41,035 nt of DNA, taken from IMG/VR virus record IMGVR_UViG_3300048837_000668, positions 1 to 41,035 of that record; one strand, given 5' to 3'. Both the position numbers and the translations under genes were made by a program. Positions 1-41,035 of the stretch are shown in pieces. How positions within the stretch are numbered: position 1 is the first letter of the stretch; each line of letters begins with the position of its first letter. Source of the DNA: a virus. The notes under the pieces were generated by a model, which saw only the letters and a program-made list of their open reading frames with translations, ran no database searches and was not told the DNA's origin.

Positions 1-127
1 CCCCGACAGCATCACGGCGCTGTTGCATGCGAGCGCGGTGGATGGCGGCCCGGTCGGCCCGGATCCGGAGTATGGGCGCGGCCGTGTCGACGTGCCGCGG
101 CTGCTCGCCCTCGTGATCCCTCGCGCC
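1..127. repeat. Terminal direct repeat, left copy (circular join)
   Basis: These 127 bases are identical to the last 127 bases of the window (40909-41035). The serine-protease reading frame continues in frame from one end to the other. The simplest reading is that an assembler opened a circular or circularly permuted molecule and left an overlap. A length of exactly 127 is a common assembly k-mer size, so this is probably not a biological terminal repeat. Confidence 0.95.
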
Positions 128-4733: not shown

Positions 4734-5114
4734 TCAAATGGGGGTTAGGGTGCACGTCAGCCAGGCGGGAGAGTTGCCGAATCCAAAGAACGTCTGTCCA
4801 GTGCAGGTCTCCCCGAGGATCCGAACGATGTACATCGGGCCATTCAGGGCTTGGGGTCGCCAGTCCAGCCGGTAGGCTGATTCGTTCCATTGGGCGGTGT
4901 CGCGGACCGGCAGATCACCGCGAACGTCACCACCGACCCAGTCGATGACAATGCGCTCGTCGTTCTGGGAGATTACGCGAAAGCGGGCCGGCTGGGCCTG
5001 CACAGCGCCGGTGCCGTGGACGTCGTATTCCCCAGAGAGCCTTGTGTCGCTGGGGCCGGAGCCACCGCAGGCGGACCCGAGGATAGCGAGGAGGAGGGCG
5101 GATCTGATGCGCAT
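4734..5114 (-). CDS. Putative lipoprotein (lysogenic-conversion or superinfection-exclusion candidate)
   Basis: 126 residues from the ATG at 5114 with a good leftward ribosome site (GGAG 7 bases upstream). The N-terminus is MRIRSALLLAILGSACGG: a positive start, a hydrophobic core and a Cys at position 16 in an imperfect lipobox (G at -3), pointing to a lipid-anchored envelope protein. The mature part is beta-rich (LSGEYDVHGTGAV, RFRVISQNDERIVIDWVG, YRLDWRPQALNGPMYIVRIL) with two further Cys, suggesting a small barrel or lipocalin-like fold. It is the only gene besides the repressor on the minus strand. It has its own promoter candidate with repressor-like half-sites and sits next to the immunity region. 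That is the classic position of a moron expressed in lysogens. An o-spanin partner for 3814-4464 is less likely because of its orientation. Confidence 0.65.
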   Translation of the reverse strand: MRIRSALLLAILGSACGGSGPSDTRLSGEYDVHGTGAVQAQPARFRVISQNDERIVIDWVGGDVRGDLPVRDTAQWNESAYRLDWRPQALNGPMYIVRILGETCTGQTFFGFGNSPAWLTCTLTPI

Positions 5115-6688: not shown

Positions 6689-7788
6689 GCGAGACCACCG
6701 AAGAAAACGCGGGGGGGGTCGCCGTCGTACCGCAGACGCACCCCGGCTTCGCGCCGAAGGCGCAGATCCAGGCGGCGATCGAGGCGCGCAAGGAAATCGC
6801 CCACGCCATGCGCGCCTGGCGGGCGACGCAGTGGGGGAAGGATCTCGAGGAAGGCACGCTCAAGGCCCTCGGTGCATGGGCGAAGCGGCACGGGCTCGAC
6901 ATCACCGAGGTCGAGGTGCTCGGCGGCAAGCCGTACGTGAACGCGTCGTTCTACCTGCGCAAGCTCGCAGAGGCCGGTCCCGACCTGCTCGAGTACGCGC
7001 GTGCCGATCACGTGCACTTCGATCAGCGGCTGGTCGATCAGATGAACGAGCCGATCCCTGACGATGTGGACGAGGAGACGAAGGCGCTAATCCTCGGGGC
7101 GCGGCGCACGGCGCGTCAGGAGCACTACCGCCGCACCGCGCAGCGCGTCGCCTACAACCTCCCCGACAAGGCACTCGCCGCGGTGGTGTACCGCGTGAAG
7201 CTGAAGGGGATGGAGGGCGAGTTCGTCGGCGCCGACTGGTGCGGTAACAAGGGCACCCGGACGATCAAGAAGCGCGACGGCGGTTCCTTCACCAAGGACA
7301 AGGATCCCGTCGGCGATGAGGAGCCCGCGAAGACCGCTGAGACCCGCGCAGCTCGTCGCTGCCTCCGCCAGGCGGTGAGCGTCTTCCCGGAGACGCAGGC
7401 GGCGATCGAGTCGGTGGAGTCGGAGGCTAAGCAGCTCGCGCCGGTGATCGAGGCCGACCGCGAGGCGAACAAGCCCCAGCCGCTGGTGATGTCCCATGTC
7501 TCGCACCCGCCCATCGACGCCACCATCGTGGACGACATCACCGACGGTGAGGCCGAGGAGATCGTGACCGATCCCCGCCTCGCGGGAGGGAAGGATCCGT
7601 TCTCCGACGGACCGCGCACGAAGGCGCAGATCTATCGCCTCGAGCAGGTGATGAAGGGCCCGGAGTGGTCCGACGAAGAGCGCGCCGCGGCCGCGGACTA
7701 CGCGATCTCCGCGACGAGCGGGGAGATGGAGGAGAAGATCCGATGGGCCAAGCAGGAGAACGAGGCACGTCGGAAGGCGGCGGCATGA
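6685..7788 (+). CDS. Putative single-strand annealing or recombination protein
   Basis: 367 residues from GTG 6685. The core contains AVVYRVKLKGMEGEFVGADW, then KDPVGDEEPAKTAETRAARR. A strand-rich 'K.....G.....G..W.G' segment followed by 'DP.G...P.KTAETRA.RRALR' is a pattern I associate with diverged phage annealing or recombination proteins, but catalytic residues are not diagnostic in these families. The N-terminal third (QIQAAIEARKEIAHAMRAW) is helical and the C-terminal third acidic, ending in a helix. It is followed at once by a Gp157-family gene, a frequent neighbour of phage recombinases. Call it a recombination protein by pattern and context; a structural comparison would be needed to choose RecT, Erf or Rad52-like. 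Confidence 0.45.
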   Translation: MSETTEENAGGVAVVPQTHPGFAPKAQIQAAIEARKEIAHAMRAWRATQWGKDLEEGTLKALGAWAKRHGLDITEVEVLGGKPYVNASFYLRKLAEAGPDLLEYARADHVHFDQRLVDQMNEPIPDDVDEETKALILGARRTARQEHYRRTAQRVAYNLPDKALAAVVYRVKLKGMEGEFVGADWCGNKGTRTIKKRDGGSFTKDKDPVGDEEPAKTAETRAARRCLRQAVSVFPETQAAIESVESEAKQLAPVIEADREANKPQPLVMSHVSHPPIDATIVDDITDGEAEEIVTDPRLAGGKDPFSDGPRTKAQIYRLEQVMKGPEWSDEERAAAADYAISATSGEMEEKIRWAKQENEARRKAAA

Positions 7789-8324
7789 CCCGGCGCCTCT
7801 ATGAGATCACCACCGACCTGCGCGGCCTCGAGGAGCAGCTTCTCGAATCGGGGGGGGAGTGGACGCCGGAGATCGAGGCGTTGTTTGCTGGCGTCGAGGG
7901 CGAGCTCTCCGCGAAGGTGGATGGGTACGTCTCCCTGATTCGCGAGTGGGAGCTCGACGCCGAGAAGTGGAAGGCGGAGGAAGCCCGGATGCAGGCGCAC
8001 CGCCGCGCTCGCGAAAACGCCGTGAAGCGCCTCAAGGATCGGTTCTGCCAGGAGCTGCTCGCCGTCGGACGCGACAAGGTGGAGACCGAGCGCTTCAAGG
8101 TCGCGGTGCAGCGTGCCGCCAAAACCGTGGAGATCCTGGGCACGCCAGAACAACTGCCGGAGCGCTACCAGACGGTGATCCCGGCGAGTGTCGTCGCCAA
8201 CAAGGCGGCGATCACGGCGGACTGCAAGGCGCACCCCGACGGCATTCTCGCGGTGGATGAGGGGGAATATGAGATCGTGTTCGCCCGGCTGGTCGACGGC
8301 ACTCCCTACCTGAGGATCCGCTGA
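7785..8324 (+). CDS. Siphovirus Gp157 family protein
   Basis: 179 residues from ATG 7785 (ATGA overlap). The layout matches Gp157: an N-terminal helical half (LYEITTDLRGLEEQLLESGG, KVDGYVSLIREWELDAEKWK, with a basic 'RRARENAVKRLKDRF' helix), then a beta half beginning KVETERFKVAVQRAAKTVEI and including 'LPERYQTVIPASVVANKAAI'. Known Gp157 proteins are early siphophage proteins, and one is linked to phage resistance in Streptococcus thermophilus. The biochemical role is unclear, but the family typically neighbours annealing proteins and nucleases. Length is close to the family norm, so the gene looks intact. Confidence 0.85.
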   Translation: MTRRLYEITTDLRGLEEQLLESGGEWTPEIEALFAGVEGELSAKVDGYVSLIREWELDAEKWKAEEARMQAHRRARENAVKRLKDRFCQELLAVGRDKVETERFKVAVQRAAKTVEILGTPEQLPERYQTVIPASVVANKAAITADCKAHPDGILAVDEGEYEIVFARLVDGTPYLRIR

Positions 8325-11684: not shown

Positions 11685-11915
11685 ATGATGGACCTGAACG
11701 CATTCCCCGACGAAGCGATCCTCACCACGCGTGAGGTCGCACAGTGGCTGGGCTGCAGCGAGAAGAGCGTGCTGCGGCTGCCCATTCGTCGTGCCGCCAT
11801 CCCGTCACTCTCCGCCAGCTTCCTCGCGAAGGATGTGAAGGACACGGTGCTCGGGCGCGAACGCCGGCGCGCCATCCCGCGGCCGAAGCAGCGGCGGAAG
11901 GCTGAGGCGGCGTGA
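11685..11915 (+). CDS. Excisionase-like small winged-HTH protein
   Basis: 76 residues from ATG 11685 (a second ATG follows at 11688). Residues 10-40 (DEAILTTREVAQWLGCSEKS, VLRLPIRRAAIP) match the opening helix-turn-helix of MerR/excisionase-type proteins ('lT..EvA.wLg.s.kSV.rl'). The remainder is basic (GRERRRAIPRPKQRRKAEAA), suiting DNA bending. The stop overlaps the integrase GTG start (GTGA, 11912-11915). A basic HTH peptide coupled to an integrase is the usual recombination directionality factor arrangement. Confidence 0.65.
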   Translation: MMDLNAFPDEAILTTREVAQWLGCSEKSVLRLPIRRAAIPSLSASFLAKDVKDTVLGRERRRAIPRPKQRRKAEAA

Positions 11916-12991
11916 CACCGCATCGCGCGTCGGGTCAGCGGGGCACGTTTCTTCTCGATCGCCAGTTCTCTGGGATCGGGCGGATTCGGCGTGCCTCGGG
12001 CACCACGGACCGGCGCGTCTTTGCGGGCATCAACAAGATGCTCGACACGTTCTACGAGCGGGGCCTCTTTGGGCAGCTGGAGGCGATTCGCGACGGGAGC
12101 CTCAAGCCGATCGCCGCGTACGCCGTCTTCCGCACCACGCGCGCAGAGAGCGTCCCTGACGCCAAGGCGATGCTCCCGCTCCTGAGCACCTGGGAGACGT
12201 GGGAGGAGGAGACCCCGAACGCCGACACGCGACGGATGCGCCGCTTCGCGCGGGTCCACATCGAGCAGTTGGCGACGCAAGGGTCGGCGATCGCCGAGAT
12301 GGCCTCCGTCATTTCCCGGCTACGCCCGCGCCTGGTGAAGCAGCCCCCGACCTTCAACCGGGTCCGCGCCTCGGCGCTCGCGTTCCTCAAGACCACCCTC
12401 GGGAAGGGGCATCCGGCGTACGTCGCGGTGCGTGACATCGAGGGGATGCACGAGGACACCGTGCAGCGCTCCGCCCCGACGGTCGCGAAGGCGATCGCCG
12501 TCCGGCGAGCACTGCCGGCATCGGCGGCGGCGCTGTGGTGGTCCATGGCCACCACAGGGATGGGGCCGAAGGAGATCGACGGTGACTGGTCGGTCGGCAC
12601 GGATCGGGTGGAAGTGCACGGCCGGAAGCGCCAGGCGCGAGACCGCATCATCCCGCGCGTCAGTACCCCGACCCGGCGCGAGATCGGCTGGAAGCAGTTC
12701 CGGGAGATCCTGCGGGCCCTCCCGGTGGAGACCCGGGTGCAGCCCTACGACGGGCGGCGCGCCTACGCGCACCTGCTCGAGCAGGCGGGGATCGCACGGA
12801 CGCGTCGGCGGATGTACCTGGGGCACGCGGTTGGGGACGTCACCGACCGGTACGAGACCGCGGACCTCGTCGCCTTCCTGGGCGAGGACGCGGGAAAGAT
12901 CAGCGCGCTACTGGAGACGGAAGAGGAACGGGCGGCAAAATCGGGGCAGGACACCACCCCGGAGCGCCCGCGAAAGGGCAGGAAACCCTAG
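11912..12991 (+). CDS. int: Tyrosine recombinase (integrase) with altered catalytic positions
   Basis: 359 residues from GTG 11912. The C-terminal half aligns with the tyrosine recombinase catalytic domain: 'WWSMATTGMGPKEI' (210-221), Lys239 in HGRKRQARDR, a box-II region PYDGRRAYAHLLEQAG (278-293), LGH (303-305) and the presumed nucleophile Tyr314 in VTDRYE. Two positions differ from the classical set: Arg I in 'TG(L/M)R' is Gly218, and the His of HxxR is Tyr279 while its Arg282 is kept. The N-terminal half would hold SAM-like core- and arm-binding regions. attP lies 75 bases downstream, which argues for a working integrase. The gene is embedded in the early operon, so its expression is tied to lytic transcription unless another promoter exists. 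Confidence 0.75.
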   Translation: MTPHRASGQRGTFLLDRQFSGIGRIRRASGTTDRRVFAGINKMLDTFYERGLFGQLEAIRDGSLKPIAAYAVFRTTRAESVPDAKAMLPLLSTWETWEEETPNADTRRMRRFARVHIEQLATQGSAIAEMASVISRLRPRLVKQPPTFNRVRASALAFLKTTLGKGHPAYVAVRDIEGMHEDTVQRSAPTVAKAIAVRRALPASAAALWWSMATTGMGPKEIDGDWSVGTDRVEVHGRKRQARDRIIPRVSTPTRREIGWKQFREILRALPVETRVQPYDGRRAYAHLLEQAGIARTRRRMYLGHAVGDVTDRYETADLVAFLGEDAGKISALLETEEERAAKSGQDTTPERPRKGRKP

Positions 12992-13005
12992 CGCGAGTCC
13001 CCGAA
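12991..13005 (+). repeat. Integrase arm-type site candidate, left
   Basis: GCGCGAGTCCCCGAA is repeated exactly at 13200-13214. Each copy is followed 12-13 bp later by another CCCCGAAC (13012-13019 here), and inverted versions occur at 13030-13038 (GACTCGCGC) and 13042-13050 (TGTCGGGGA). Repeated short sites on both sides of a tRNA-like core are what arm-binding sites of an attP look like. Confidence 0.5.
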
Positions 13006-13065
13006 CAATCCCCCGAACGGGGAAGCGGAGACTCGCGCGAATGTCGGGGAAACCCTTGCGGAACC

Positions 13066-13114
13066 TAGCTCCCGAGACAGGACTCGAACCTGTGACCCGC
13101 TGATTAACAGTCAG
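13066..13114 (-). other. attP core: 3' half of a tRNA-Asn gene
   Basis: Read leftward, 13114-13066 reproduces tRNA positions 28-76. It gives the anticodon loop CTGTTAA with anticodon GTT (13108-13106), the 39-43 stem strand, a 5-base variable loop, a perfect T-arm (ACAGG / TTCGAGT / CCTGT), the acceptor strand CTCGGGA, discriminator G and CTA in place of CCA. Pairing fails at position 27, and there is no D-arm or 5' acceptor strand, so it is not a whole tRNA. A tRNA 3' half directly after an integrase gene is the standard phage attachment core, and it predicts insertion into a host tRNA-Asn(GTT) gene that the phage restores. Confidence 0.8.
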
Positions 13115-13199: not shown

Positions 13200-13214
13200 G
13201 CGCGAGTCCCCGAA
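13200..13214 (+). repeat. Integrase arm-type site candidate, right
   Basis: Second exact copy of the 15-mer at 12991-13005, followed by a further TCCCCGAAC at 13219-13227, so the same pair of sites 12-13 bp apart stands on each side of the tRNA-like core. Confidence 0.5.
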
Positions 13215-13252
13215 TATGTCCCCGAACACGAATTCACCCACCGGGGGGCATC

Positions 13253-13462
13253 ATGGCAGGCACAACAACCGAAAAAGCAGCCGCGCGACTCGACCTCTCT
13301 GAGCGACAGGTCCGCCGGCTCGTCCAGCGGGGGGTGCTCAAGCGCCTCCGCCGTCCGACCGCGAAGGATCGGCAGCGGCTCGGCTGCGCAGCGAACGCGC
13401 ACCTGATTGACGGCGACTCGGTGCTCGCGCTCAAGCGCGCGCGCCGGAAGGCGGGACGGTGA
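13253..13462 (+). CDS. Small MerR/excisionase-type HTH protein
   Basis: 69 residues from ATG 13253. GTTTEKAAARLDLSERQVRR followed by LVQRGVLKRLRR is a clear HTH with the 'erqVrrLvqrGvLkr' second helix and wing of MerR/HTH_17 proteins, and the C-terminus is basic. It is the first gene past attP, while another HTH peptide precedes the integrase, so either could be the directionality factor. In the prophage this gene would be separated from the integrase, which makes the 11685 protein the better candidate. Confidence 0.6.
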   Translation: MAGTTTEKAAARLDLSERQVRRLVQRGVLKRLRRPTAKDRQRLGCAANAHLIDGDSVLALKRARRKAGR

Positions 13463-18777: not shown

Positions 18778-19670
18778 CGATTCCAAGCAAGAAGCTCAAG
18801 AAGCCCGCCTATCAGTGGTATCCTGGCGACTTCTGCGTCGATGAGCCCGTGCTGCTGATGTCCCTTGAGGAGGAGGGCGCGTATCGCCGACTGCTGGACC
18901 ACCAGTGGCTGCACGGTAGCGTGCCGCGGGACATCCGGCAGCTCGCGGCCATCTGCAAGGGGATCACGCTGGCCCGCATGAAGCGGGTGTGGCAGGCCGT
19001 GGGACCGTGTTTCCCGCCTTCGCCGGACGACCCTGAGCGGCTGCAGAATCGTCGCCTCGAACGCCAGCGCGTGCAGGATCAGGAGTACCGAAAGGCCATG
19101 GTGAACTCCGGTCAGGCGGGTGCGCAGAAGCGATGGGGTAAGCGCGGCAAGGCGACCAAGAGTGAGGCGAAGGACGATAGCCACCCTAATAGCCACCCTA
19201 ATGGGGTGGCTACGCAGAGGCCAATAGCCTCGGATAGCTCTTCATCTTCACCTTCTGTAGAACCTTCTCCAACAGCTAAAGCTGTTGTCGAAGGTCCCCC
19301 GCGAGGCGATGGCGGTGCCATCGCCAACGGCGCCGACGACGGCGCGACCGTACCTGGCTGGGGCGAGTGGTGCAACCGCGTGCCTGAGCACCTCCGGCCA
19401 GCCGTGGATGGCGCCGTACGTGCCGCCCAGAACCCTGCCGCGATTCAGCGGGAGCTCGTCGGGCTCACGGAGCCGATCACCGGCGGTGCCGCGTACCCGC
19501 CGACCGTGGTAGCGCAGGCGCTGCACGAACTGGCCGTAGCAGGCGGGAGGGTCACCTCGGCGGCATTGCGCAGCTTCTGCCGACGCATCGTGACGGACGG
19601 AGCGAAGGGTGGCAGCGACGGGCTCTCGCCAGGTGAACGCGTACTGCGCATGCTGGGAGATGCGGCATGA
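18774..19670 (+). CDS. DUF1376-type replication initiation protein
   Basis: 298 residues from ATG 18774 (ATGA overlap). Residues about 8-115 carry the DUF1376 pattern: YQWYPGDFCVDEPVLLMSLE, EGAYRRLLDHQWLHGSVPRD, IRQLAAICKG, then 'F.......L.N.RLE....'. This winged-helix-like domain is found in phage replication and primosomal proteins. A charged segment and a Ser/Pro-rich linker (about 135-175) follow, then a C-terminal helical domain (VPEHLRPAVDGAVRAAQNPA, PPTVVAQALHELAVAGGRVT). The linker DNA holds tandem repeats and a long hairpin, much as lambda's origin lies inside gene O. Followed by two loader-like genes, it probably recognises the phage origin and helps load the host helicase. Confidence 0.75.
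   Translation: MTIPSKKLKKPAYQWYPGDFCVDEPVLLMSLEEEGAYRRLLDHQWLHGSVPRDIRQLAAICKGITLARMKRVWQAVGPCFPPSPDDPERLQNRRLERQRVQDQEYRKAMVNSGQAGAQKRWGKRGKATKSEAKDDSHPNSHPNGVATQRPIASDSSSSSPSVEPSPTAKAVVEGPPRGDGGAIANGADDGATVPGWGEWCNRVPEHLRPAVDGAVRAAQNPAAIQRELVGLTEPITGGAAYPPTVVAQALHELAVAGGRVTSAALRSFCRRIVTDGAKGGSDGLSPGERVLRMLGDAA
19177..19295. other. Candidate replication origin inside the replication gene
   Basis: ATAGCCACCCTA occurs as two perfect tandem copies (19177-19188, 19189-19200), followed by an inverted partial copy GGGTGGCTA (19204-19212). Further on, ACCTTC-TCC-AACAGCT pairs with AGCTGTT-GTC-GAAGGT around a 2-base loop (19262-19295): 13 of 16 positions pair. The stretch between has noticeably lower G+C than its surroundings. 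Iterons next to an AT-richer hairpin in the linker of an initiator gene are typical of phage origins. Confidence 0.5.
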
Positions 19671-21603: not shown

Positions 21604-22101
21604 ATGCCAGAAGTCGAGGTCACCCAGTCGGAGTTCGCCGAGCTCATCGGAGTCTCGACGCGGACCGTGTTCAACCTCCGCGATGCGGGGTTGAACGACT
21701 ACTGCGTGACCAAGGGCAAGTCCGTCAAAGTCCGCATCCCGAGCGGGATCCAGTGGTATGTGCGCTACAAGGAATCGATGGCGGCAGAGAAGTCCACGCC
21801 GTCCTCCCTCGCCCAGGCAGAGTTGGACTACGCGGTGGCGAGGGCGGAGGGGATGCGCGCGGACGTGGATCGGAAAAAGGCGAAGCTGATCGAGCGGGCG
21901 CTGATCGAACCGTGGGTCGGTGACATGCTCTCCCGAGTTCGGAGCCGACTGGATGCGCTGCCGGTGAAGATCGCGCAGGGTGTGACAGCCGAGAAGGAGC
22001 GCGATCGCCGCAAGCAGGCCGCAGCACTGGTGACCGAGGTGCTCGAGGAGCTGCGCCTCGGCCCGATGCCGACCGGCAACGAGGAAGAGGACGAGTCGTG
22101 A
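21604..22101 (+). CDS. Terminase small subunit (Nu1-like)
   Basis: 165 residues from ATG 21604, with AGGAG upstream. The first 60 residues (VTQSEFAELIGVSTRTVFNL, RDAGLNDYCVTKGK) form the winged-helix DNA-binding head of Nu1/gp1-type small subunits ('vsq.efA..lGVs.rTV.....Gl'). Residues about 75-110 (AQAELDYAVARAEGMRADVD, RKKAKLIERALIE) match the 'A...EA...r.kaeL...kkGel...e' helix common to Nu1 and DUF1441 proteins, which dimerises and contacts the large subunit. It recognises the packaging site and hands DNA to the motor. The stop overlaps the large-subunit start (GTGA). Confidence 0.8.
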   Translation: MPEVEVTQSEFAELIGVSTRTVFNLRDAGLNDYCVTKGKSVKVRIPSGIQWYVRYKESMAAEKSTPSSLAQAELDYAVARAEGMRADVDRKKAKLIERALIEPWVGDMLSRVRSRLDALPVKIAQGVTAEKERDRRKQAAALVTEVLEELRLGPMPTGNEEEDES

Positions 22102-24005
22102 TCGCGACGCTCGATCCCCGGCTCATCGAGATCGAGGCGCGTCTCTTCGAGGAGCACTTCGCTCCGAAGCCAGACCTGCCGCTGCCGGAGCACGCGCGGC
22201 GCTACCGGGTGCTCACCCGCGACACCTCGGCGGTGGCGGGCGCGTTCATCGCGAAGCCCTACCAGATCGAGCCGATGCGCGCCCTGGATGATCCGGACGT
22301 GCGGTCGGTGACGTGCGTCATGCCGGCGCAGGTGGGCGGCAAGACGGAGATCGGGCTGTGCTGGTTCCTCAAGAACGCCCACATCAACCCGGGTCCGATG
22401 CTCGCGGTCGAGCCGACGCTCACGATGGCGAAGGCGCTGAGCGAGGAGCGGATCGACACGATGTTCGAGAACGCCTGGGATCTGCGCCGACTGCTGGCGT
22501 CGAGCGGCACGAAGGGCAAGGGCAACCGGATCCGCTTCAAGCGTGGCGCGGGGTGGTCCATCACGGTCGTCGGTGCGCGGTCGGCGGCCGAACTGTCCAT
22601 GCGTCCCATTCGCGACGTCTGGTGCGATGAGCCTGACCGGTACCCGCTGAACGTCGGCGGCGAGGGCACCGTCGTCCAGTTGGCTGATGGTCGGACGCGC
22701 ACGTATCAGGATCGCAAGCGGCTGCTCACCGGCACGCCAGTGTACGAAGACCTGGCGAACTCGATCTGGGTGTACCACGTGCAGGGTAGCGGAGGCGAGT
22801 GGCACGTGCCCTGCCCGCTCTGCAGCGCGGAACAGCCGCTGGTGTTCGGGGACCGTGACACACCGTTCGGCCTGAAGTGGAAGAAGGATCGGCCGGAGAC
22901 CGTGGAGTACCTCTGTGCGCACTGCGGCAAGATGTTCTCGGAGCGGCACAAGGTGGCGATCAACCAGGCAGGATCCTACCTGCACGAGCGGCCAGAGCGG
23001 ACGACGCATCCGAGCTTCCACTTCGAGGCGGTGGCGAGCGAGACGGTGAGTTGGCCTGAGATCGTGATCGCCTTGCAAGAGACGCTCATGATCCCGGATA
23101 AGCTGCAGACGTTCCAGAACACCTGGCGCGCGCTGCCGTGGCGCGAGGGTGGGGTGTCGGTGGACCTGAAGCTGCTGCAGTCGCGGCGCCTGGCACCGGG
23201 CGTCGAGATGCCGAACTACGTGCACGTGCTGGTGGCGGGGATCGACGTGCAGCACACGCGCGTCGAGGTCGGGCTGGTGGGCTTCGGGCCCGGCGAACGG
23301 TCGTGGATGAAGGTCTACCGCATCGAGGGTGACACGTCGTCGATCAACTCGCCGATCTGGAAGGACGTGGACGCCCTGCTCGAGACGCCGGTGAAGCGGG
23401 CCGACGGCAAGGAGATGCGGATCCGGATCAGCGCGATCGACATCGGTGACCAGGCAGAGGTGGTGTCGGAGTACGTGCGGACCCGGAGCCGGCTGAACGT
23501 GCGCGCGGTGCGCGGCGTCGAGATCGAGGGCATGGTCGAGCCGGTGCGTCGGGCCCGGAAGAAGAACCGGTACGGCATCGAGTGGTGGCAGGCCAGCAAC
23601 CTGGTCACGAAGCGGGTGCTCTTCGGGCGGCTCGCGCGGGTATCGACGCCCGGCCCGGGCTACATCGAGTTCGATGGGTCCATGACGGATGAGATGCTGG
23701 AGCAGTTCCTGAGCGAGAAGTTGGTCAAGCAGAACGGGCGGCGGATCTGGCTCAAGATCAGCGGGCGCGCGAACGAGGCGATCGACCTCTGGCGCTACGG
23801 CTACGCGACGCTGTGGATGCTGGGCTCGAACATCCGGTCGAAGCTGATGAAGCTGGCAGAGGTGGACGAGGTCGAGGACGCCGAGACGCCCGCCGAGGTC
23901 GTGGAGAGCGTTGAGGTGGCGGAAGAGGCACCGGAGCCTGAGCCCGAGAAGCCGAAGCGCGTGCGGCGCCGGCGGGGTTCGTGGCTGGATCGGTTCCGCG
24001 GCTGA
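22098..24005 (+). CDS. terL: Terminase large subunit (GpA family)
   Basis: 635 residues from GTG 22098 (GTGA overlap). The ATPase half has a GpA-type Walker A-like loop VMPAQVGGKTE (74-84) and a Walker B VWCDEPD (174-180). Two CxxC pairs at about 239-242 and 273-276 are the zinc knuckle often seen in GpA proteins. The nuclease half begins at VAGIDVQHTRVEV (379-391), whose first Asp is the expected metal ligand. The protein ends in an acidic then basic tail (EEAPEPEPEKPKRVRRRRGS), probably for portal or small-subunit contact. It cuts concatemeric DNA and powers packaging into the prohead. Length is normal for the family. Confidence 0.95.
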   Translation: MIATLDPRLIEIEARLFEEHFAPKPDLPLPEHARRYRVLTRDTSAVAGAFIAKPYQIEPMRALDDPDVRSVTCVMPAQVGGKTEIGLCWFLKNAHINPGPMLAVEPTLTMAKALSEERIDTMFENAWDLRRLLASSGTKGKGNRIRFKRGAGWSITVVGARSAAELSMRPIRDVWCDEPDRYPLNVGGEGTVVQLADGRTRTYQDRKRLLTGTPVYEDLANSIWVYHVQGSGGEWHVPCPLCSAEQPLVFGDRDTPFGLKWKKDRPETVEYLCAHCGKMFSERHKVAINQAGSYLHERPERTTHPSFHFEAVASETVSWPEIVIALQETLMIPDKLQTFQNTWRALPWREGGVSVDLKLLQSRRLAPGVEMPNYVHVLVAGIDVQHTRVEVGLVGFGPGERSWMKVYRIEGDTSSINSPIWKDVDALLETPVKRADGKEMRIRISAIDIGDQAEVVSEYVRTRSRLNVRAVRGVEIEGMVEPVRRARKKNRYGIEWWQASNLVTKRVLFGRLARVSTPGPGYIEFDGSMTDEMLEQFLSEKLVKQNGRRIWLKISGRANEAIDLWRYGYATLWMLGSNIRSKLMKLAEVDEVEDAETPAEVVESVEVAEEAPEPEPEKPKRVRRRRGSWLDRFRG

Positions 24006-24334: not shown

Positions 24335-24895
24335 ATGACGGCGCGCGCCACGACGATCCCCGCGTCTCTGACTGCAGGGGATACCTGGGAATGGGAGCGC
24401 TCGCTCCCCGATCACCCTGCCAGTGATGGCTGGGTGCCGAGCTACGCGATCGTGGGCGCGCTGAAGCTGACGTGGGATCCAGCGTGGGCGACCGCTGAGG
24501 GTGCGCTGCACGTGGTGACGGTCCCGATGGCGAAGACGGCGGAGCTGGGCGCGGGTGGCCCGGTGCGATTCGTCGAGATGGTCACGCTGTCGGGTGTGCG
24601 GAAGACGCTGGGGACGTTCGAGCGCGTGGTGGCACCCGATCCGGCAGGCTACGAGGCCGGAGACGGGATCAGCTGGGCGCGGCGGATGCTCAAGGTCGTG
24701 GACGACTTCCTCGAAGGGCATCTCGCCGACGGCGTCCAGTACCAGATCATCGGGACGCGGCAGCTGCAGCACATCCCGCTGCCTGAGCTGTTGCAGTTCC
24801 GGCGGGACCTGAAGGCGCAGGTGGCGCGTGAGATGGGACGCGGGAACGGCCCGCTTGGCCGCCCGATTCGCTTCACGATGCCGGGTGTGCAGTGA
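24335..24895 (+). CDS. Head-tail connector protein, gpW-like C-terminus
   Basis: 186 residues from ATG 24335. The N-terminal half is beta-rich (TTIPASLTAGDTWEWERSLP, VGALKLTWDPAWATAEGALH) and resembles small phage Ig-like or decoration folds. The C-terminal half (MLKVVDDFLEGHLADGVQYQ, IIGTRQLQHIPLPELLQFRR) has the gpW signature: helix, short hairpin with 'G.R...' and helix with 'L..R..l...'. gpW joins head and tail and sits just ahead of the portal gene in lambda, as here. The fused N-terminal domain is an addition over gpW (68 residues). No clear ribosome site; the stop overlaps the portal start (GTGA). Confidence 0.6.
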   Translation: MTARATTIPASLTAGDTWEWERSLPDHPASDGWVPSYAIVGALKLTWDPAWATAEGALHVVTVPMAKTAELGAGGPVRFVEMVTLSGVRKTLGTFERVVAPDPAGYEAGDGISWARRMLKVVDDFLEGHLADGVQYQIIGTRQLQHIPLPELLQFRRDLKAQVAREMGRGNGPLGRPIRFTMPGVQ

Positions 24896-26406
24896 CGATC
24901 CGGGATTGGCTCATTGACAAGCTGCAGCCGGGACCGAAGCGCCAGCGTCGGCGCCACTGGCAGGCCGCTGATCGCAACCGCATCACCCGAGGCTGGGTGG
25001 ACGGACTGCTCTCGGCGGACGCGGAGCTCTGGGATAGCCTGCCGACGCTCCGCGGGCGTTCGCGGCAGTTGGTACGCGACAACCCGCACGCGGCCGCCGC
25101 GGCGCGGGTCTGGGTCGACAACGTCGTGGGACCGAATGGGCTGACGCTGCACCCGCTGGTGACGCGAGGTGATCAGTCGCTCGACTCGGAGGCGAACGCG
25201 GAGATCCGCCGCTTCTGGAGGGCGTGGGGCACGCGATCGGTCTGCACCGTGGATCGGCGGCATAGCTGGTTCGATGTAGAGCGCTTGGCGGTGCGGTCGG
25301 AGTTCGTCGACGGCGAGTTCCTCGCGATCGAGCGCACGGGCCGCGGGGTGAATGAGTTCGGGTATGCACTGCAGCTGCTCGATCCCGACCAGTTGGACGC
25401 GAGTTTCAACAGGACGGCGACCAAGGGCCGCAACGAGATCCGGATGGGCGTGGAAGTGACGGAGTGGGGCGAGGCGGTGGCGTACCACCTCTGGCCTGGG
25501 CACCCGCAGGACATGGTGGCACGCGGTCGTGAACGGATGATCGTGCCGGCGGCGCAGGTGCTCCACTACTTCCAGGCGCTCCGTCCTGGGCAGACGAGAG
25601 GGATCCCACGTCTCGCACCGGTGATGAGCCGTCTCAAGATGCTCGATCGGTACAGCGAGGCGGAGCTGCTTGCCGCAGCGGTCGGTGCATGCAGCTCGGT
25701 GCACTACGAGCAGGACGAGCACTCGGAGCTCGACGAGGACGACGGTGACCCGGCCGGGGAGATCCCCGTGGAGCTGGAGCCCGCAATGGCGCGGCTGCTC
25801 CCGAAGGGCGTGAAGGCGGTGTTCAACAAGGCGGAACACCCGGCGACCGCCTACGGGCCGTTCGTGGATGTCGAGCACCACGCCGTGGGCGCCGGGCTCG
25901 GGATCGCGCACAGCACGCTCACAGGCAACCTGAATGGCGCGAACTACGGCTCGTTGCGGGACGGCACGATCAAGGAGCGCGATGTCTATCGGGTGGAGCA
26001 CCGTCGCCTGCCGGAGCACTTCCACTCGCGGGTGTTCCGCGCAGCACTGAAGAACGGCGTGCTGTACGACGCAGTCGAGATCAAGGGATCGGATTGGCGG
26101 CGGTATGCGCTGCACGCGTTCGCGGGACGAGGCTGGGCGTGGGTGGATCCGTGGAAGGACCTGAAGGCCGCGGAGCTCGAGCTGGCGCTGCGCCTCACGA
26201 CCCGGAGCCGGTTGGCGCTGGAGAATGGCCGGAGCTTCGAAGAGCTCCTGCAGGAGTGGGATCAGGATACCGAGCTGGCGAAGGCGTGGGGGGTGACACT
26301 CAACGACCCGATGCCAACCGGCAGCGCCAAGGCGGCGGCAGTAGTCGAGGACGCCGAGGACGACGACGAGGAAAAGGAGACCACGGATGACGACGACAGC
26401 GACTGA
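24892..26406 (+). CDS. Portal protein (lambda family)
   Basis: 504 residues from GTG 24892 (GTGA overlap). N-terminal 'LRGRSRQLVRDNPHAAAAARVWVDNVVGPNG' is the lambda-portal signature (R.R.R.L.rNn..a..a......nvvG.G). Further family marks are VRSEFVDGEFLAIERTGRGV, the 'Q.L.pD..' strand LLDPDQLDA, GVEVTEWGEAVAYHLW, then VLHYFQALRPGQTRGIPRLA, 'P.......l.......e.......a..a' and a wing with NYGSLRDG. Portal forms the dodecameric vertex through which DNA passes and to which terminase docks. The C-terminus is acidic (EDAEDDDEEKETTDDDDSD) and overlaps the capsid gene by 20 bases. Confidence 0.93.
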   Translation: MTIRDWLIDKLQPGPKRQRRRHWQAADRNRITRGWVDGLLSADAELWDSLPTLRGRSRQLVRDNPHAAAAARVWVDNVVGPNGLTLHPLVTRGDQSLDSEANAEIRRFWRAWGTRSVCTVDRRHSWFDVERLAVRSEFVDGEFLAIERTGRGVNEFGYALQLLDPDQLDASFNRTATKGRNEIRMGVEVTEWGEAVAYHLWPGHPQDMVARGRERMIVPAAQVLHYFQALRPGQTRGIPRLAPVMSRLKMLDRYSEAELLAAAVGACSSVHYEQDEHSELDEDDGDPAGEIPVELEPAMARLLPKGVKAVFNKAEHPATAYGPFVDVEHHAVGAGLGIAHSTLTGNLNGANYGSLRDGTIKERDVYRVEHRRLPEHFHSRVFRAALKNGVLYDAVEIKGSDWRRYALHAFAGRGWAWVDPWKDLKAAELELALRLTTRSRLALENGRSFEELLQEWDQDTELAKAWGVTLNDPMPTGSAKAAAVVEDAEDDDEEKETTDDDDSD

Positions 26407-39854: not shown

Positions 39855-41035
39855 TGCAGCGCCTCGGCCGGATCCTCGCCGTCGTCACCCTCCTCGTCAT
39901 GGCGTGGGGGGGGGTGGCGTTCGTGAGCGCGCAGGCGCCCACGGTGCGCTATGCCGTCGTGCTCGAGGCCGAGCGCGACACTGTGCAGCTCCTCCCGGCG
40001 GCGAAGCGGTGGGGCCTGGCGGTGGCGTTCCGAGAGGGGGCCGTGCTGGCCTTCACTGGCCGCCCAGGTCTGCTCGACTCGCTGCGCGCGCTGCGGCCCG
40101 CTCCCCTGTACGCGGAGTACGATGCGACGACCCCGCTCCCGCCGCCGGATTCCACTGCCCTCGCTGACCTGAGTGATCTGGCGGCGCCGATGGCGCTGCC
40201 GTGGAACCTCGCGATGATCGGCGCGGACAGCGCATGGAACCGAGGGATCACCGGTGCCGGGGTGCGGGTGGGGATCATGGACTCAGGGATCTTCGCCGAC
40301 CACCCTCACCTGAACGTCGTCGGCGGCCGCAACTTCGGCACGAGCAACGGCGGGCCCGAGGCATGGGGCGACACCTTCGCACCGTGCAAGGGCCACGGCT
40401 CGCACGTCGCCGGTTCGGTCGGATCGTCGGTCAACGGCGCGGCCCCCGGCGTCGAGTTGTTCGCGCTCCGAGTGTTCGAAGACATCAACGGCGAATGCCT
40501 GAGCTGGTCCTCCGTTCAGGCGGTGGCCCTGCGGTGGGCTGACTCTGTGAGCCTCCCCGTCGTCAACGCCTCGATCGGCGGTGGCGCGACGGGCGTGATG
40601 ATGCTCGCCGTCCAGGGCTACACGGCGCGCGGTGGCATGCTGGTGGCCTCCAGCGGCAATGCTGGTGGGGCCACCGCCTACTACCCCGCCGCCTACGCTG
40701 GCGTCCTGAGTGTCGGCGCGGTGACCAGCGGCGGCGGGCGCGCGAGCTACTCCAATCGCGACCCCGATCTCGACCTCGTGGCCCCCGGCTCCGGCATCGT
40801 CTCCTCGTTGCCAAGTGGCGGCACGGGCTCGAAGTCGGGCACCTCGATGGCCTCGCCCCATGTGGCGGGTGTCGTGGCGCTGCTGCGCGGCCTGCGGCCT
40901 GAGCTCACCCCCGACAGCATCACGGCGCTGTTGCATGCGAGCGCGGTGGATGGCGGCCCGGTCGGCCCGGATCCGGAGTATGGGCGCGGCCGTGTCGACG
41001 TGCCGCGGCTGCTCGCCCTCGTGATCCCTCGCGCC
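39854..41035 (+). CDS. Secreted subtilisin-like serine protease (S8), N-terminal part
   Basis: The gene starts at ATG 39854 and continues, after removal of the 127-base overlap, to the stop at 305-307: 453 residues. A Sec signal peptide is clear (RLGRILAVVTLLVMAWGGVA, with cleavage around VSAQA). Residues about 34-110 resemble an I9-type propeptide (VRYAVVLEAERDTVQLLPAA). The S8 triad is complete: Asp143 (GIMDSGIF), His181 (GHGSHVAGS), Ser331 (GTSMASPHVAG), with oxyanion Asn269 (SSGNAGG). It is therefore a secreted, self-activating endoprotease, not an internal prohead protease. Set between the lysis genes and the fibre genes, it may act on host surface or debris at release, or be expressed in lysogens. 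It may instead be carried on the virion. Confidence 0.9.
   Translation, partial: MQRLGRILAVVTLLVMAWGGVAFVSAQAPTVRYAVVLEAERDTVQLLPAAKRWGLAVAFREGAVLAFTGRPGLLDSLRALRPAPLYAEYDATTPLPPPDSTALADLSDLAAPMALPWNLAMIGADSAWNRGITGAGVRVGIMDSGIFADHPHLNVVGGRNFGTSNGGPEAWGDTFAPCKGHGSHVAGSVGSSVNGAAPGVELFALRVFEDINGECLSWSSVQAVALRWADSVSLPVVNASIGGGATGVMMLAVQGYTARGGMLVASSGNAGGATAYYPAAYAGVLSVGAVTSGGGRASYSNRDPDLDLVAPGSGIVSSLPSGGTGSKSGTSMASPHVAGVVALLRGLRPELTPDSITALLHASAVDGGPVGPDPEYGRGRVDVPRLLALVIPRA
40909..41035. repeat. Terminal direct repeat, right copy (circular join)
   Basis: Identical to 1-127. Removing one copy gives a circle of 40,908 bp with the protease gene intact. Confidence 0.95.

Follow-up and report, generated by a model that had tools for sequence, protein, structure and literature searches.

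Why does a phage genome carry 49 bases of a tRNA gene, in antisense, just behind a gene whose product is missed by the libraries of integrase families? Could this fragment tell us where the phage integrates, and in whose chromosome? An initial annotation of the locus had taken the 49 bases for an attP core that predicts integration into a host tRNA-Asn(GTT) gene, and had suggested that the exact sequence would find the host. We set out the evidence below, on the basis of which these 49 bases are almost certainly the attP core of a temperate, circularising Gemmatimonadota phage that would insert into tRNA-Asn(GTT). The window, by which we mean the whole stretch of 41,035 bases analysed, is a virus record (G000) with a 127-base direct terminal repeat, and is probably a complete circular phage genome of some 40.9 kb, the repeat being of a length that would fit an assembly overlap. 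Its features are collected in Table 1.

Table 1. Features of the phage genome discussed in the text (positions in the window).
Feature	Position	Strand	Remarks
Direct terminal repeat, 127 bases	left copy 1..127; right copy 40909-41035		circular, apparently complete genome
Small HTH protein	11685..11915	+	overlaps integrase start; weak HTH_17/HTH_23
Divergent tyrosine integrase, 359 aa	11912..12991	+	G218 (Arg I position), K239, R240, R243, Y279, R282, H305, Y314
P-arm pair of putative arm-type repeats	12998..13017	+	TCCCCGAA / CCCCCGAA, 12-base period; near-identical pair in G037 P arm
Predicted attP core	13066..13114	-	tRNA-Asn(GTT) positions 28-73 plus CTA
Anticodon loop CTGTTAA	13104..13110	-	presumed 7-base crossover region; flanked by stem inverted repeat CTGA/TCAG
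P'-arm pair of putative arm-type repeats	13207..13226	+	TCCCCGAA x2, 12-base period; 92 bases from core
Small HTH protein	13253..13462	+	P' side; HTH_17 E 0.00018, below curated cut-off; PHROG 2907 excisionase E 0.003
Terminase large subunit (gpA)	22098..24005	+	synteny marker; 29.7% identical homologue on G037:C8
Portal protein (lambda family)	24892..26406	+	synteny marker; homologue on G037:C8

An exact tRNA-Asn(GTT) fragment adjoins the integrase gene

The reverse complement of the core begins at C28 and continues with the anticodon stem strand CTGA, the loop CTGTTAA with GTT at positions 34-36, the closing strand TCAG, the T-arm ACAGG-TTCGAGT-CCTGT, the acceptor strand CTCGGGA and the discriminator base G73. 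The numbering from position 28, the T-arm and the anticodon, as the initial annotation had them, can thus be read directly, on the minus strand. Two of its details need correction. The fragment was said to extend to the CCA end; it does run to the 3' end of the tRNA at G73, but the three bases that follow are CTA, and CCA is not encoded. The core does lie next to the integrase gene, but 74 bases, not 75, separate it from the end of the stop codon at 12991. No complete tRNA was detected in the window by ARAGORN or by Rfam at gathering scores, as expected, since the core is a fragment, comprising the final two thirds of a tRNA-Asn gene.

We scanned 84,980 species genomes, one per species, for the 41 bases from the anticodon loop to G73. 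This stretch occurs exactly in five places, each of them within a tRNA-Asn(GTT) gene called by ARAGORN. The match to the core extends over all 49 bases in one of the five (L009), over 48 in L010, L011 and L013, and over 46 in L012; in L009, a locus of a Gemmatimonadota genome, both flanks diverge at once. A chance match is excluded by the five exact occurrences, every one inside a tRNA-Asn(GTT) gene, together with the 49/49 identity of L009 and its diverging flanks. The exact 49-mer is absent from the viral contigs searched.

tRNA-Asn genes do occur in phages, as our search matches attest, and the fragment might accordingly be a decayed phage-borne tRNA gene that never served as an attachment site. 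We regard this as exceedingly improbable: identity to the bacterial gene spans exactly C28 to just past G73 and stops at an abrupt edge, with no decay in between; the fragment adjoins an integrase gene and sits between two pairs of arm repeats; and these edges recur in a related, integrated prophage.

A related prophage occupies the same tRNA gene

This prophage, in genome G037, is the decisive evidence for the predicted attP. Contig C4 of G037 carries the closest integrase that we found (L018, 47% identical) beside an intact tRNA-Asn(GTT) gene, and contig C8 holds only a 3' fragment of the tRNA, the other att copy. The attL and attR of this element have 48 bases in common, which start at C28 like the core of the window. 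The prophage is split over these two contigs, so that its ends are joined by content and not by one continuous sequence: C8 has genes for homologues of four window proteins, namely the terminase (29.7% identity), the portal (28.4%) and two from the tail region, and with respect to the att site these genes are ordered and oriented as in the window. A related element is thus bounded by copies of the same core in the same tRNA gene. The initial annotation had proposed a search of bacterial genomes with the 49-mer, and would have abandoned its reading had related prophages been found in a different site. The best match is tRNA-Asn, attL and attR of a related prophage are known, and the more distant relatives that lie at other tRNA genes bear different cores. 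No prophage closely akin to the window was found. The nearest integrase is the 47% identical one of G037, the structural proteins of that prophage are only 26-30% identical, and no relative of the window's terminase was found among viral contigs.

A second genome, G127, has two contigs with a common 5' flank and tRNA that then diverge, one into an integrase gene (L019) and the other elsewhere; these are apparently the occupied and the empty version of one site within one population.

Paired repeats flank the predicted core on both arms

Pairs of short repeats with a 12-base period lie on either side of the core. An exact 12-spaced CCCCGAA pair is found in just two places in the 41,035 bases, and in none of 100 shuffles. 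The motif pair recurs on each arm in G037, and its distance from the core on the P' side is 92 bases there, exactly as in the window. Four further elements (G287, G083, G133 and G151) arrange motifs of their own in this way too, with about 105-108 bases between the core and the start of the first repeat. In each of the six elements examined, those for which both ends are known, the P' side has a 12-base-spaced pair, approximately 92-108 bases from the core, that matches the element's own P arm. An arm pair was also found beside L024, an integrase with Arg I present, and beside L039, the motif of which is unreadable; it is weak at L026, and the segments checked next to L022, L035, L044 (only 20 bases) and L016 have none. 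We read the paired repeats as putative arm-type sites, which the integrase would bind, since the structure model of the integrase can be aligned from residue 1 with full-length lambda Int. What is new here is a predicted attP flanked by 12-base-spaced pairs of such repeats, in a layout shared by five related elements. The window would thereby supply a complete predicted attP, comprising the core and both arm pairs, to go with an integrase missed by Pfam, PHROGs and NCBIfam. Elsewhere in the window, at 19177-19200, exact 8-mer pairs also recur at 12-base spacing; this run, perhaps a short tandem repeat, lies away from attP.

How would the phage integrate? The N-terminal domain of the integrase would bind the pairs of arm repeats to either side of the core, and its other domains the core itself. 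attP would be recombined with the tRNA-Asn(GTT) gene of the host, with cuts most likely placed around the anticodon loop of 7 bases. The 3' part of the gene would then give way to the phage copy, so that attR, on the integrase side, keeps an intact tRNA, while the 3' fragment that was displaced would mark the far end (attL). Two small helix-turn-helix proteins could have a part in the reverse reaction. The one that overlaps the integrase start is a candidate excisionase or directionality factor, and in G037 (contig C4), G083 and G287 a homologue of it is encoded immediately upstream of the integrase gene; the other, on the P' side, is a second candidate excisionase. The window also encodes, at 7665-8324, a Mu Gam-like end-protection protein (PHROG 253, E 6e-27), in a phage with a lambda-type portal and a gpA terminase.

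The exact matches point to a host in the Gemmatimonadota

All five genomes with an exact match to the 41-mer are metagenome-assembled genomes of Gemmatimonadota. Among 395 sampled genomes of this phylum, 20 contain the 46-base core with at most two mismatches, and in seven of these it is exact. These matches point to a host in the Gemmatimonadota. The expectation that the exact sequence would find the host is therefore borne out for the phylum, but no further, as the core does not settle the genus. Since tRNAs are conserved and a single genome represents each species in the collection, might the host belong to another phylum and merely have the same 3' half of tRNA-Asn? We judge this very improbable: the exact matches over 84,980 species are Gemmatimonadota without exception, and the closest integrase and the syntenic prophage were likewise found in that phylum, of which 395 genomes were searched. 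The host of the window phage presumably carries an identical core. For an otherwise hostless metagenomic phage, host phylum and exact insertion site are thereby obtained, and with the exact attB known the system is a possible genetic tool for Gemmatimonadota. Phrase searches of the literature covered found no paper naming a Gemmatimonadota phage.

The five genomes with an exact attB contain no relative of the integrase at E 0.001 (one weak match has E 0.009). In the best-matching one, a decayed copy of the tRNA-Asn 3' part, interrupted by an insert, lies some 1.3 kb downstream from the intact tRNA gene (L009, 1750-1860) and is likely left over from an earlier integration at this site. The sole match to the core with a single mismatch (G370:C219:5002-5047) has the anticodon CTT in place of GTT; it is a tRNA-Lys-like sequence with the 3' half of tRNA-Asn.

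The integrase has the tyrosine recombinase fold and lacks Arg I at its usual place

Searched alone, the integrase hits no family in Pfam, PHROGs or NCBIfam. Single-sequence searches returned nothing from viral contigs or plasmids, only five weak matches (E 0.3-0.6) from the phages collection, and a single, unrelated match among solved structures. Its kinship is evident from the relatives and from the fold: 14 of the 21 members of its alignment match Phage_integrase (E up to 0.1), and a profile search retrieves the XerA-like structure 4a8e (E 2.7e-6). The structure model (pLDDT 89) superimposes on 4a8e with Z 13.0 (rmsd 10.2, 221 residues), on lambda Int 1z1g_A with Z 11.4 (rmsd 9.8, 264 residues) and on 3vcf_A with Z 12.7 (rmsd 3.0, 149 residues). 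Model and profile match agree on a tyrosine recombinase fold with core-binding and catalytic domains.

The enzyme retains the tyrosine nucleophile (Y314), Arg II (R282), the beta-hairpin lysine (K239) and the second histidine (H305). Arg I of the RKHRH pentad, on which such enzymes normally depend, is missing from its usual place, which is taken by G218 in the motif TGMGPKE (TGMR in other relatives), and the first histidine is replaced by a tyrosine, Y279. The Arg I position is occupied by Gly in 10, Asn in one, His in one and Arg in nine of 21 aligned rows (alignment A4, a selection of relatives that omits short, distant or unreadable rows). A search with a DNA pattern for TGMGPKE gave seven matching stretches, two of which (L002 and L003) encode integrase relatives; the remaining ones were dropped. 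A further relative used as query, L016, retrieved nothing from the phages and plasmids collections.

Relatives of the integrase often reside at tRNA genes

Is such an integrase still active? Relatives (E up to 0.001) are present in 37 of the 395 Gemmatimonadota genomes searched. We fetched 30 loci, half of which (15) have a convergent tRNA gene that overlaps the integrase stop or lies within 300 bases of it; in one, tRNAs at 13 and 156 bases are codirectional, one has a tRNA at 1,370 bases, and 13 have no tRNA in the locus. The two best-scoring genomic relatives, L018 and L019 (34-35% identical), both lie at tRNA-Asn(GTT). More distant ones are found at tRNA-Lys, -Arg, -Leu and -Gln, which indicates that the family switches sites. 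Four elements are bounded by a second, perfect copy of the tRNA's 3' part (44 bases in G287, 44 in G083, 60 in G133 and 46 in G151). The non-standard residues at Arg I and the first histidine recur in the nearest relatives, several of them at perfect att pairs.

These loci bear on the proposition that the attP is real but inactive, the integrase having lost catalysis and been kept as a DNA-binding protein. Gly at Arg I and Tyr at the first histidine would suit such a fate, and the structural matches of the model include SroF, a recombinase-like phage repressor of this kind. We nevertheless consider an inactive attP quite improbable. Relatives without Arg I sit at perfect att duplications in G287, G083, G133, G151 and G037, all seven genome-derived A4 rows with Gly or Asn at this position adjoin a convergent tRNA gene, and Tyr314, Arg282, His305 and Lys239 are retained. 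Moreover, the CTnDOT integrase functions without Arg I at the usual place, according to the excerpted text of PMC8138268.

Comparison with known integration systems

The predicted protein aligns with full-length lambda Int, and in both systems the core is flanked by arm-type repeats, here putative ones; identity to lambda Int is about 12%, and the arms here would consist of two tandem pairs. Lambda Int retains Arg I.

There is nothing unusual in the kind of att site. Anticodon-centred attP sites of tyrosine integrases have been described before (PMC4383910; PMC8371274, both as excerpted), and such tRNA att sites form class A in Islander. As this class is outlined in the excerpts of PMC4383910, the attP contains the 3' part of the tRNA, anticodon stem through gene end; upon integration the tRNA is restored and a 3' fragment is left behind at the opposite end, as proposed here. 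We see no difference in principle from that outline, to which the present locus adds the 12-base-spaced repeat pairs on both arms and an integrase from a clade unrecognised by family libraries.

By description, this clade resembles three known exceptions. In the IntCTnDOT subgroup, some members are without Arg I and a downstream arginine replaces it (PMC8138268, in excerpt). The window integrase likewise has no Arg I at the usual place and has candidate replacements downstream; IntDOT belongs to elements of Bacteroidetes and its substitute arginine was tested biochemically, whereas here it is only proposed. The IntDes enzymes, of unknown function and, in the same excerpts, reported only from Desulfovibrio, have a shifted first arginine and a tyrosine as the first histidine of the pentad (PMC8138268). 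An altered first arginine, the His-to-Tyr exchange and an arm-binding domain (predicted for our protein) are common to both, a likeness by description only, but the present clade is from Gemmatimonadota and has clear integration sites. Lastly, another survey lists two integrases with the first arginine changed to serine (PMC12884075).

An arginine near the catalytic lysine in most rows without Arg I

Could a nearby arginine, R240 or R243, substitute for Arg I? By analogy with the CTnDOT integrase this may be the case. In A4, the 11 Gly/Asn rows and the His row all have an arginine at K+4, as does one of nine Arg rows; at K+1 an arginine is found in 10 of the 11 Gly/Asn rows (L035 being the exception) and in none of the nine Arg rows. 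A wider set, counted by hand from the motifs, including L095 and leaving out rows with unreadable motifs, has the K+4 arginine in 14 of 15 rows without Arg I (L044 lacks both) versus 2 of 14 with it.

A statistical coupling of the two traits was sought and rejected: an independent-pairs test, on a tree that included the motif columns, yielded two supported pairs and p = 1. In a smaller tree the full-length rows without Arg I form one group (support 85/89), with L031 (His) counted in the Arg I group, and in a larger tree the Arg I label needs four changes. Coupling is not proven, because there are too few changes on the tree. Tentatively, and with somewhat less than even confidence, we propose that phages and islands of Gemmatimonadota harbour an undescribed clade of active arm-binding tyrosine integrases, the window integrase among them, that recombine tRNA genes while lacking the canonical Arg I and would draw the guanidinium from the beta-hairpin beside the lysine (R243, perhaps R240). 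The integrase clade is what is novel at the locus, and it deserves following up along with its paired-arm attP; a tRNA-targeted attP is textbook. If active, the window integrase would be a further natural case, after the CTnDOT integrase, of a tyrosine recombinase without Arg I at the usual place. The same guanidinium solution may account for the IntDes enzymes.

Two minor observations concern the relatives. In G287 and G083 (L020 and L021), the integrase frame extends into the 3' end of tRNA-Lys; the C-terminus of these integrases, encoded by the reversed tRNA, could alter on excision. On the viral contig IMGVR_UViG_3300013772_000051 (L096), a tRNA-Arg(ACG)-like 3' fragment that starts from position 30 lies at 4913-4950, downstream of a related integrase without Arg I, and is probably another attP.
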